Source: Aciduliprofundum sp. MAR08-339 (GTDB lineage: Archaea; Thermoplasmatota; Thermoplasmata; Thermoplasmatales; Aciduliprofundaceae). From it: a DNA stretch of 64,000 nucleotides. Below the pieces are notes generated by a model. The model saw only the letters and a list, made by a program, of their open reading frames with translations. It made no database searches and was not told the DNA's origin. The stretch spans positions 806,001 to 870,000 of the forward strand of contig NC_019942.1 of assembly GCF_000327505.1 (NCBI RefSeq), read 5' to 3'. The position numbers and the translations under genes are program-made. This document shows positions 7,401 to 13,770 of this stretch, piece after piece; position 1 is the first letter of the stretch; every line of letters begins with the position of its first letter.

Positions 7401-8654
7401 AATTCTTACAGTATGGCTCTTTCAGGATCTGCCCAACAGGAGATAAAACTACAGAATTATCAGCTGACTTTCTATGGTAATATAAATGGAGTGACATTCG
7501 TCACTGGGTCTGTACTGGTGAACAATGTGGGCTCCTACTTTGTAATGGGTACGGCCAACTCCATGTATGGCTCAGGAACTCTCACTGGATATGTAAATAT
7601 CCTGCAACATACTCCATATGTTAGCTCATATGGAAATGGATACAACGATTTCAGGATGGTAGGATATTTCAATGTGCATCTGTATGCGGCTAATGGAACA
7701 CAGGCGTACTTCCAGGTTGAATTGCCAGTTATAAATAACTTTGTCTATTCTCCGAGCAATCAGTATTATGTGTGGAGTGTGCCTTCAGAGTTCTCTTATA
7801 CAACGGTTAAGGAATCCTCTAACTATGGAATGGTGGATTATGGAAATTACAAACTAGAGCAGGGCTCTGGTGCTATGGTTGTAACCCTTTCCAATGATCA
7901 GATAGCTACCATAGTTACTCAGCTGGGAGACGTGGTTAACGTATCCATATCACAGCTTAACGCCAAGATTGTGGGTCTCTGGAATACTGCTAACGAAACC
8001 TATGCACTATTGAATACTGCATATGGCCAGATGAGTGCCAAGCTAAGTGCGATTGATGCCAAGATCACAGACATAAGCAATGGAATGGCGACGATACAGA
8101 CAGATATAGGCAACATACAGACCTCCTTGAGCAATCTGGATGCGAAGGTCACAGACATAAGCAATGGAATGGCGACGATACAGACAGATATAGGCAACAT
8201 ACAGACCTCCTTGAGCAATCTGGATGCGAAGATAACCAAGCTCCAGGGAGATGTTGCAACCATACAGACCACGCTTGGAACCGTGCAGGTTAAACTCAAT
8301 GCCATAAATGCAACAGTGGTGAGCAACGCAAAGGGCATAAGCGATCTCAAAGGCAGCGTTGTTGAGATACAGACCACACTCGGTACCATAAAGGGTACGG
8401 TCACTGACATAAAGGATGGAGTTGCAACCATACAGACCAACTTGGGCACAGTGCAGACCGATGTGAACAGCATCAAGACCAACACTGCAAACACTGCAAA
8501 CAGCGTGAACACCACACTCTACTGGGAGATCGGCGTGCTGATACTGGTCATCATAACCCTTGCACTGGTGGCCTACGTCATCGTACAGGTGAACAAGATA
8601 GCCAAGAAGAAAGAGAGCGTGGAAGAGGAAACAACTGAAGAAACAGAGGAGTAA
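4428..8654 (+). CDS. S-layer protein with coiled-coil stalk and C-terminal membrane anchor
   Basis: This 1408-residue protein begins with an export signal (basic start, hydrophobic stretch MMASIVTLLVLLSIFAIV, then SVSAAS). About 1100 residues of Thr/Ser/Asn/Tyr-rich beta sequence follow, with a very high density of NXS/T sequons, as expected of a glycosylated S-layer canopy. From about residue 1160 it changes to a long heptad-patterned coiled coil (IQTDIGNIQTSLSNLDAK and variants). It ends in one membrane helix (IGVLILVIITLALVAYVIVQ) and a charged tail (EEETTEETEE). One chain thus carries canopy, stalk and anchor, roles split between SlaA and SlaB in Sulfolobus. Codon use changes near 7900: the canopy prefers AT-ending codons, and the stalk and anchor prefer codons like those of neighbouring genes. 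The neighbouring GT-C-like enzyme may serve its glycosylation. Confidence 0.85.
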   Translation: MKDEKKKIMMASIVTLLVLLSIFAIVPASVSAASQSPTVKAGTTVGTVTLSPSNGAFPGQIVYYKWTGVPTDLVPPVYVTVYMNGAAYSTQVASYDSVNGILTGTFTMPNDQPGTTFDVSFSYTDSAGNYATSTVTGTGTMYVGMSPQSNVTASSVYPQEGSAQFSGTTSLGGWTEGTISSSSSNSMGCSMWDFNVTNQLYPHYTNLYNSTMAPDQSVDINAQAAYVTPANFTQNVASHKTVVNVTTVDKGTAILSLPATDVIPSTFTFNNAGNQITKIKTSFYVNSTVSGVLVSFKFTGIYASTITAPGTYTMPGTFVTVSPASLTELTGQFSASYDIHDFGISGSTYYVNYTLSITFSGSWSYVSVNAQYLTSTYVNNTGTSSTFTNTTTVNLQAGYSFESKYVGLENPGITGTYVFSFYNNTLNTWVNGTQFSFSNNTTAQIINGLAPIYFNNTINMIGFNRTVTGAINISLTTNYFIQGVYAIAPAVWDFNMTLNFSLMSDDGLIMVDGYLINDTYWVKTQQLTLQAVVTPTHDFGNWNQEFYPLINATLSTYLGYPKINYFGVGKVMPTFTYEGQQATLTLGATDVVANFVALPSTVGTPNYFYGERAITGLNETLEYGSYVGAADVNVTVTVNAVSPVIYGVTNTGVLNITYNVTTAANNTGMEIVLNESTAPAVNFEFTVGSVPMDYTNILMANYYKLSLYEIAWYLHDAKFMACLYAVFPGYSGMLVFNGTGSNNAVNTLLTIGTSISVPGIVSGLSGFANNSMGGWYNASLYVSSNSYYALYGGVFKGNYYIYADFGDIKKNSTEYPFFEGYLYTDISTAPVEPALPVNEIYALDGMYYSSGMDITDYMQYVNITNANVSGMQTITWNAYGISNTYRWYTGNFDIIMTTSTSWSNTFYNVPLNVTGTLPLGAGSSGATVDVYYSITVGRPLQNVSLTPIINSITGVTTMASIGNTTTSVYYNLYSVISNSTSLLLNLQNGGMNSYSMALSGSAQQEIKLQNYQLTFYGNINGVTFVTGSVLVNNVGSYFVMGTANSMYGSGTLTGYVNILQHTPYVSSYGNGYNDFRMVGYFNVHLYAANGTQAYFQVELPVINNFVYSPSNQYYVWSVPSEFSYTTVKESSNYGMVDYGNYKLEQGSGAMVVTLSNDQIATIVTQLGDVVNVSISQLNAKIVGLWNTANETYALLNTAYGQMSAKLSAIDAKITDISNGMATIQTDIGNIQTSLSNLDAKVTDISNGMATIQTDIGNIQTSLSNLDAKITKLQGDVATIQTTLGTVQVKLNAINATVVSNAKGISDLKGSVVEIQTTLGTIKGTVTDIKDGVATIQTNLGTVQTDVNSIKTNTANTANSVNTTLYWEIGVLILVIITLALVAYVIVQVNKIAKKKESVEEETTEETEE
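8065..8231 (+). repeat. 84-bp tandem repeat encoding one 28-residue coiled-coil unit
   Basis: Bases 8065-8147 recur without mismatch at 8149-8231, a period of 84 bp. The unit encodes 28 residues, exactly four heptads, so gain or loss of a copy lengthens the stalk without breaking the coiled-coil register. More diverged copies follow (IQTTLGTVQVKL, IQTTLGTIKGTV, IQTNLGTVQTDV), so the stalk appears to have grown by duplication. The perfect identity points to a recent event or ongoing homogenisation. Confidence 0.9.
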
Positions 8655-12614: not shown

Positions 12615-12700
12615 TTCCTAGGTATATCTCCCAAAATAATTTAATTCTTTTCTTTCTATGCCTTCATCAATAAAACAAAGGGAATGTGGAATTTTTAAAT

Positions 12701-12740
12701 TTTTCCAAAATTGGAAAAGGTTTTGGAAGATTTTCCAAAA
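12701..12740. repeat. Nested TTTTCCAA palindromes
   Basis: TTTTCCAA (12701-12708) and TTGGAAAA (12711-12718) form a perfect 8-bp dyad with a 2-bp centre. TTTTGGAA (12721-12728) pairs with TTCCAAAA (12733-12740) as a second dyad. TTTTCCAAAA occurs a third time at 12867-12876. The motifs look like binding sites for a dimeric protein. Confidence 0.7.
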
Positions 12741-12922
12741 ATGCCTTATTTTTTCTGTATTTTAATTGTTTTTATTCGGGAAATAGCTAAGATATGATCC
12801 TGCTGCAAAGTTAAAAAATATTATGTATTTAACTTATTTTTCAACGCATTATTTTTATTTCCAGTTTTTTCCAAAACATGGGTAAAACTCAGAGAAGCAT
12901 GGAATTTTATCGTGGCTGGATA

Positions 12923-13120
12923 ATATATAAAAATTCCCTCAAAAATCATTGGGTTGAGAGCGGTTGGAAGTAGTGTTTTACAGGGGTTGGAAATGGTTGA
13001 GAAAGGTTGAGAAAAAGTTGAGAAGAGTTGAGAAAAGTTGAGAAATTGGTTGGAACCGGTATTTTACAGAGGTTGAGAGCGGTTGAGAAAAGTTGAGAAA
13101 AAGTTGGAGTTCCAACCACA
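12923..13120 (+). ncRNA. Possible non-coding transcript across the phased array
   Basis: A TATA box (about 12923-12931) lies 26 bases before GGG at 12951-12953, the first base of the array, as if transcription begins there. The predicted RNA would be purine-rich. It contains a 9-bp inverted repeat GGTTGGAAC (13048-13056) and GTTCCAACC (13109-13117) that could close a stem near its 3' part. There is no homology to a known RNA class that I can recognise, and the TATA box could instead be part of a protein-DNA element. Confidence 0.25.
12953..13108. repeat. Helically phased array of 13 GTTGRG motifs
   Basis: GTTGAG or GTTGGA units begin at 12953, 12963, 12986, 12996, 13006, 13017, 13027, 13037, 13049, 13072, 13082, 13092 and 13103. 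Successive steps are 10, 23, 10, 10, 11, 10, 10, 12, 23, 10, 10 and 11 bp, so nearly all fall on one face of the helix. The two 23-bp gaps both contain TTTTACAG (12976-12983 and 13062-13069), dividing the array into blocks of 2, 7 and 4 units. GTTGG variants occur mainly at block edges. The frame is broken by stops in all translations, so this is not a coding repeat. Confidence 0.9.
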
Positions 13121-13170
13121 TATTATACCCCTATATGTTCCATGATTTCCACCCATGGAAAAACACGTGC

Positions 13171-13224
13171 ATTCTCATGTATAATACATGAGAATATACA
13201 TGAGAAAAACCCAATTTTCTCATG
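13171..13224. repeat. Two adjacent CATGAGAA palindromes
   Basis: ATTCTCATGTA (13171-13181) and TACATGAGAAT (13185-13195) are perfect 11-bp arms around three bases. Directly after, CATGAGAAAA (13199-13208) and TTTTCTCATG (13215-13224) are perfect 10-bp arms around a 6-base loop. The same octamer therefore occurs four times within 54 bp. Use as a regulator-binding site or as hairpins is possible. Confidence 0.8.
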
Positions 13225-13305
13225 GTGACATCGCCCAAGAAGTTGCGTGAAAAATTTCCGAGATATTTTTAATTCTCTCAACTTTTTTCATAACTTTCTC
13301 AACTT

Positions 13306-13770
13306 TCATCTTCTCTTTCCCGATTTTCTTACTCTATTCAACTCTCCTCCGCATACAGGGCATGAGGAGTAGTATTTTGAATAGTACCTTCCGCAGGATG
13401 TGCATCTCCACTTCCACCTGCGAATCTCTTTTATCTCATCCTGATGAATGCCCATAAATTCCAGGTTCAAATGAGAGGCAACATTCTGCATTGCGTAATC
13501 ATCCGTAATCAGGGTTGCGTTAAGTTGCAGAGCAAGTGCTATGAGTTCAATGTCCACATTGCTCAAGGAATGAAAATCTCCTGTTTCCTTGGCGGCCTTG
13601 ACCGCTAGTTTTGTGTTGTACCTTGAGGGTGAAACAACCTTTATTATGGGAAAATACACACCCTTGCTCTTGACTTCACTTTCAACACCTGGCGTGGTGT
13701 AGATCTCAACATCTCCAGGCGGAATGAATCCTTCGATCAGGGCGGAGGAGTCAATCACATATCTCTTCAC
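13306..13770 (-). CDS. nob1: Nob1 endonuclease (PIN domain plus zinc ribbon)
   Basis: This 154-residue protein matches archaeal Nob1, which makes the final cut at the 3' end of 16S rRNA during small-subunit maturation. A PIN domain occupies about residues 1-115, with acidic residues of the active site in YVIDSSALIEG, NVDIELIAL and LITDDYAM. A C-terminal zinc ribbon (CTSCGRYY, CPVCGGEL) and a basic tail (RKSGKRR) follow. The start at 13770 gives the family-typical first strand. It diverges from the dehydratase genes and converges on the repeat region. Confidence 0.9.
   Translation of the reverse strand: MKRYVIDSSALIEGFIPPGDVEIYTTPGVESEVKSKGVYFPIIKVVSPSRYNTKLAVKAAKETGDFHSLSNVDIELIALALQLNATLITDDYAMQNVASHLNLEFMGIHQDEIKEIRRWKWRCTSCGRYYSKYYSSCPVCGGELNRVRKSGKRR

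Follow-up and report, generated by a model that had tools for sequence, protein, structure and literature searches.

The window (the whole 64,000-nucleotide stretch analysed, positions 806001-870000 of the single 1,437,090-bp chromosome of the archaeon Aciduliprofundum sp. MAR08-339, here G000) carries, in the interval between nob1 and a tRNA-Leu gene, an array of thirteen GTTGRR hexamers at 12953-13108, nine of them GTTGAG and four GTTGGA. These hexamers, referred to here as iterons, start at 12953, 12963, 12986, 12996, 13006, 13017, 13027, 13037, 13049, 13072, 13082, 13092 and 13103, with steps of 10, 23, 10, 10, 11, 10, 10, 12, 23, 10, 10 and 11 bp, and form blocks of two (12953-12968), seven (12986-13054) and four (13072-13108) iterons on the forward strand. 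A first-pass annotation of this DNA had reported thirteen GTTGRG motifs in blocks of 2, 7 and 4, with steps of 10-12 bp and two exceptions of 23 bp containing a common sequence, in an intergenic region free of ORFs. The listed starts bear out the steps and the blocks, the sequence common to both exceptions is TTTTACAG (12976-12983 and 13062-13069), and no ORF of at least 60 amino acids covers the array; the count of thirteen is also right, but the label is not, as nine hexamers match GTTGRG and the other four are GTTGGA, so that GTTGRR is the correct form. The first gap contains the motif TAGTGTTTTACAG (12971-12983, forward strand), found in a wider form, AGTAGTnTTACAC, in copies B-D described below and as similar sequences at other loci, and the second gap (13058-13069, forward strand) contains GGTATTTTACAG. 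The view that this is not a CRISPR locus is upheld by the 10-bp units without spacers, as opposed to CRISPR repeats of 20-50 bp with unique spacers, and by the lack of an Rfam match. Elsewhere in the window, at 8055-8233, an 84-bp tandem repeat (2.1 copies, 96%) lies in the coiled-coil end of a 1408-amino-acid surface-protein-like ORF.

The density of GTTGRR in the array, 13 in 156 bp, compares with a maximum of 4 per 156 bp anywhere else in the genome; in 20 first-order Markov genomes the maximum ranged from 3 to 5 over the same length. In an unbiased scan of the whole chromosome for clustering of all 6-mers, the array locus ranked first, tied with a second copy of the element to which it belongs, and GTTTAG arrays at 1.231 Mb and 1.103 Mb were also among the top places. 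It is therefore nearly certain that the array is a real, non-chance feature belonging to a repeated element. The earlier proposal of putative sites for a multimeric DNA-binding protein, phased on one face of the helix and with two inverted copies in the pattern, fits this evidence but falls short in extent: it missed a repeated element of ~620 bp, with a conserved core, an iteron that is specific to each locus and a candidate binding-protein family encoded beside other copies.

The array is the middle part of this ~620-bp intergenic element, which occupies 12691-13310 of the window (forward strand, copy A, delimited by alignment with copies B, C and D) and is present in four recognisable chromosomal copies together with more divergent ones. 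Its parts follow in the order AT-rich arm with palindromes, TATA-like box, iteron blocks, abutting inverted iteron, palindrome-bearing spacer, core and inverted iterons. The left arm (12691-12740) contains the palindromes TTTTCCAAAATTGGAAAA and TTTTGGAAGATTTTCCAAAA and is conserved in copies A-D; TTTAAA directly before these palindromes could be the TATA box of a divergent gene, and in copy C this end of the element is about 12 bp from the start of an ORF of a protein family that we call family 1. The TATA-box-like sequence TAATATATAAAAATT (12921-12935, forward strand), a predicted promoter element ~25-30 bp before the first iteron, is likewise conserved in copies A-D, with identities over 12916-12952 of 95% (A-B), 86% (A-C) and 89% (A-D). 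This conserved box would suit a non-coding RNA gene beginning at the array, an explanation that we consider extremely improbable given that an RNA needs no DNA-helical phasing, that Rfam gives no match, that the promoter is not seen in other loci and that the iteron sequence is wholly different among loci. Behind the last direct iteron, an inverted iteron abuts on the reverse strand (13111-13116; GTTGGA-GT-TCCAAC), which becomes GTTTAG-GT-CTAAAC in copies B and C. The spacer contains a perfect palindrome, ATTCTCATGTATAATACATGAGAAT (13171-13195), behind which lie more half-sites of the forms CATGAGAA and TTCTCATG. The palindrome is kept in B and D and split in C by an extra hairpin, ATAGAGATGCCCCATGGGGCATCTCTAT, inserted at its centre (C1:1102500-1102580). 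The 17-bp core, CCCAAGAAGTTGCGTGA, lies at 13234-13250 on the forward strand and is followed by the two inverted iterons (13277-13282 and 13298-13303), reverse complements of the iteron 21 bp apart on the minus strand, whose spacing had been given correctly in the first-pass annotation and whose positions, 13276 and 13297, were out by one. A minus-strand frame of 29 codons (MKVEKVMKKVERIKN...; 13220-13310) overlaps the nob1 stop codon and spans both inverted iterons, probably by chance.

Copies B (1231311-1230714) and C (1103073-1102410) are 76-82% identical to copy A, copy D (453389-452905) is similar to it in parts and has a much shorter array, and a fifth, divergent copy, E, at 1.2994 Mb combines GTTCCA iterons with the same core and inverted iterons. 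Further copies of the core are found at 604, 705 (K705) and 1374 kb of G000 and also in A. boonei. The core at C1:1373796-1373812 (L253), accompanied by a palindrome, shortly precedes a gene of winged-helix/coiled-coil-like type (family 2, 1373847-1374770), which is near cas1/cas2-like genes; the same core-gene pair is present in A. boonei at 138350/138386. Whereas the iteron differs by locus (GTTGAG, GTTTAG, GTTCCA, TTTCGA, TTTTGCAC, TGTTTACA), the core and the layout are conserved, and each of the 16 loci compared, which come from two families of the phylum, has a version of the core (consensus CCCAwsAAGTTGCGTGA). Between copies B and C, identity is 99% across the array of 162 bp, but 80% in the upstream arm and 89% in the spacer; between A and B it is 71% in the array and 86% upstream. 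The abutting inverted iteron changes together with the array iteron (GTTGGA/TCCAAC in A, GTTTAG/CTAAAC in B and C). In these alignments the array evolves as a unit among copies, which suggests either that iteron identity is under selection or that a functional array is homogenised locally, two causes that are inseparable here.

The layout was also examined mechanically by picking the top phased 6-mer before the core and seeking its reverse complement after it; in most loci an inverted copy was present 25-50 bp past the core; K705 and D did not pass this test. Clean, helically spaced arrays are seen in copies C and E and at loci G002b, G006 and G322 of other genomes. Few iterons, partly in mixed orientation, and no clean array are found at K705 and, next to an archaeosortase gene (artC), in A. 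boonei, G001 and G002; at these three artC loci the phasing is barely above that of shuffled sequences. The core can form a small hairpin in several loci; copies A-D have no clean hairpin and G322 has a weak one, and the idea that the core acts as an essential hairpin was rejected as unsupported in A-D.

Comparison with relatives points to dispersal of the element. In G001, nob1 and tRNA-Leu are 45 bp apart and the element that occupies this interval in G000 as copy A is absent; likewise the mrp-PCNA interval is ~64 bp in A. boonei and 641 bp in G000, where it contains copy D. PCNA keeps its own upstream sequence at the latter site, outside the element, and the ParA-family (Mrp-type) ATPase beside copy D has the same place in A. 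boonei without it. Absence of the element from a relative at two sites indicates that it has dispersed, although on sequence comparison these pairs fit insertion here or loss there alike and the two cannot be told apart. Relatives with the same genes and no array had been named as grounds for doubting the array; G001, with its 45 bp, is literally such a case, but the absence reflects a dispersed element and not a chance array. The nob1-tRNA-Leu interval of A. boonei, a genome about half of which was covered in the comparison, holds 6.2 kb of other genes (L152 7445-13701), including nucleotidyltransferase-like, large repeat-protein and ATPase genes, and is a variable site. Since other copies lie beside unrelated genes and G001 lacks the element here, we rejected a regulatory element of nob1 or tRNA-Leu. 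A role as chromosomal origin was also rejected, as a search allowing up to 3 mismatches gave no core-like site in the neighbourhood of the Orc1/Cdc6 gene (C1:725); GC skew was uninformative on this point.

The dispersed copies and element-free sites in relatives might instead reflect an element that moves by transposition or site-specific integration and whose ends or arm sites are seen here, with gene-less copies as its non-autonomous (MITE-like) forms. A gene-bearing copy in G006 adjoins a tRNA-Leu as copy A does, on the other side, so that tRNA-Leu adjacency recurs in two genera, and the core, with direct iterons before it and inverted ones after it, is reminiscent of attP arms. We nevertheless think this explanation unlikely: inspection by eye showed clear terminal repeats or target duplications neither in the A-D alignment nor at the D site, no transposase or integrase was recognised beside the element in the loci inspected, and the core has no match to the tRNA. 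Two BrxD-like ATPase genes near copy C (C1:1098499-1100502, L239) suggest a defence island.

A search of related genomes for GTTGRG arrays, recommended in the first-pass annotation, recovered an array in G006 and otherwise mostly chance or coding matches; by itself such a search finds almost nothing because the iteron sequence is locus-specific. Similarly, blastn of the element in 40 relatives gave only short, weak matches outside its own genome. The gene-bearing copies C, E and K705 each have a divergently oriented family-1 gene next to them, and one of these three G000 genes occupies 1299576-1300448. Family 1 is a previously undescribed protein family, for which we infer DNA binding and which is the candidate partner of the element; its gene is adjacent to the element in nine loci, none of them the window copy, and it occurs in five of the 117 genomes of the order, namely G000, G001, G002 and A. 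boonei (G003), all of one genus, and G006. Besides G000, only G006 has a multi-copy intergenic GTTGAG array, and both array genomes are among the five carriers (p about 0.0015 by simple counting that ignores relatedness). The family-1 loci of all five genomes have a divergent upstream region with the core and an array or scattered iterons, the repeats being TTTCGA in G006, TTTTGCAC in G002 and TTGTGA in mixed orientation at the artC loci. Four genomes of the genus keep a family-1 gene paired with artC, the G000 repeats being different; family-1 gene, array/core and archaeosortase-like gene form a locus conserved in these four Aciduliprofundum genomes (C1:703371-706100 in G000, 263742-266228 in A. 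boonei), with the A. boonei family-1 gene split by a frameshift.

A profile search with family 1 across 390 genomes of the phylum added one distant carrier, G322, and this genome, found by protein alone, is an independent test in which the predicted array, core and inverted iterons are all present: in its upstream region, TGTTTACA iterons form three blocks of 4, 6 and 3, accompanied by an exact match to the core, CATCAAGTTGCGTGA, and by inverted iterons. Indeed, that exact core occurs in 3 of the 390 genomes, all three being family-1 carriers. Exact cores in viral contigs were taken as chance, as no locus among the matches listed encodes family 1, and so were C-variant cores in G149, G188, G271 and G375, whose surroundings have no array or family-1 gene. 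The family-1 proteins of G002 and G322 are 40% identical and each gene is followed by a second gene, B, whose products are 41% identical; in K705 a B-like region is apparently fused behind family 1 (a weak pairwise similarity, E 3e-5, partly coiled coil). This patchy distribution, together with the 40-41% similarity, suggests horizontal transfer. Family 1 gave no convincing match in Pfam, NCBIfam, PHROGs or PDB sequences, and searches of plasmid, phage and viral collections did not recover it. Neither family 1 nor its operon partner B, a coiled-coil protein that matches no NTPase, has a recognisable domain, whether of an initiator, of replication or of another kind, and no gene for a motor NTPase (ParA/ParM/TubZ) or initiator was found beside family 1; we therefore do not claim membership in a known partition or replication family.

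The position of the array and promoter-like sequences between family 1 and its neighbour (artC) would suit a site whose whole task is to control nearby genes, either the divergent family-1 gene, as its autoregulatory operator, or the neighbouring ones. Such a limited role is very unlikely, given that the gene-less copies A, B, D and J604 exist, that the next gene behind A-D is convergent, which leaves an array promoter without a coding target, and that PCNA beside D retains an upstream sequence of its own.

The array, its blocks and its layout invite comparison with the centromeres of plasmid partition systems, where cooperative binding, wrapping or looping, autoregulation and maintenance of mobile elements may offer a parallel. 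ParR centromeres of R1 and pB171 have direct repeats at 10-11 bp (PMC9426499). As in parC of these type II (ParMRC) systems, the repeats described here are in tandem, one helical turn each, and vary in sequence by family, as do the parC repeats that set specificity; unlike parC, the element has an additional conserved core and inverted iterons, no ParM-like motor was found and family 1 is not recognisably ribbon-helix-helix. In tubC, repeat sites lie upstream of the operon in two or three blocks and the binding protein is also the repressor (PMC5016525). The arrangement of repeats in blocks upstream of an operon is shared with this type III (TubZRC) system, but no TubZ GTPase was found beside the element. 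To our knowledge, no universal core is known for tubC centromeres. The Par system of pSK1 consists of one non-enzymatic coiled-coil protein with upstream direct and inverted repeats. This system, cited in a review as a single-gene partition system, resembles the present one in its coiled coil and upstream repeats, with no sequence relation implied, and differs from it in the second gene (B), which here shares the operon or is perhaps fused, and in the conserved 17-bp core. Archaeal SegAB and pNOB8 AspA-ParBA likewise pair an archaeal cis site with a dedicated DNA-binding protein, here a candidate, but SegB is reported to bind palindromes and both systems have a ParA-type ATPase. Set beside partition modules in general, the element has helically spaced direct repeats near an operon (clean in C, E, G002b, G006 and G322), and no motor NTPase was recognised in that operon.

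Iteron plasmid origins offer another likeness, combining replicon-specific direct repeats with AT-rich DNA and a conserved element of host type. The element could accordingly be the replication origin of integrated plasmids, with iterons binding a replicon-specific initiator and the core serving as host-factor, opening or nick site, an alternative that we regard as possible but rather unlikely. Replicon-specific iterons with a universal core, the AT-rich arm in A-D, the small core hairpin of several loci and small plasmid-like ORFs beyond the core at the G322 locus speak for it. Against it, no cognate initiator, helicase, polymerase or HUH domain was recognised in family 1 or B; the lack of a clean hairpin in A-D and its weakness in G322 also count against this alternative, and at least four idle origins in one chromosome would be odd.

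Our working hypothesis, held with about even confidence, is that the array supplies the iterons of a composite site that acts in cis and belongs to a dispersed maintenance module derived from a mobile element; for protein binding, complex formation and the maintenance role alike we infer function from the arrangement of the parts. The iterons would be bound cooperatively, on one face of the helix, by a DNA-binding protein matched to the locus, either family 1 or a paralogue, whose divergent gene adjoins the gene-bearing copies, and the three blocks, gap sites, core and distal inverted iterons would be joined in one wrapped or looped nucleoprotein complex. By likeness to plasmid maintenance, this complex may act at a centromere (partition) site or an iteron-controlled origin, and the iteron-binding protein may also repress its own divergent promoter. 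The window copy, which has no such gene, would be a site that was acquired or left behind and that is now either served in trans or idle. More tentatively, and with low confidence, we suggest a motor-NTPase-free archaeal class of segregation or maintenance systems, in which a new protein family reads locus-specific phased iterons plus a universal core and specificity diversifies copy by copy, with many sites coexisting in a chromosome.

The features of archaeal centromeres have been listed as an open question (PMC5120986), and the element and family 1 provide a testable candidate protein-DNA pair in a euryarchaeal lineage. The module, scattered in a few archaea, is previously undescribed, and both the boundaries of the element and its meaning are new. 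Its family is missed by searches with the iteron sequence and found by searches with core and protein. With its iterons changing together from copy to copy and its core and layout constant, the element amounts to a natural experiment on the diversification of binding specificity and, perhaps, on incompatibility.
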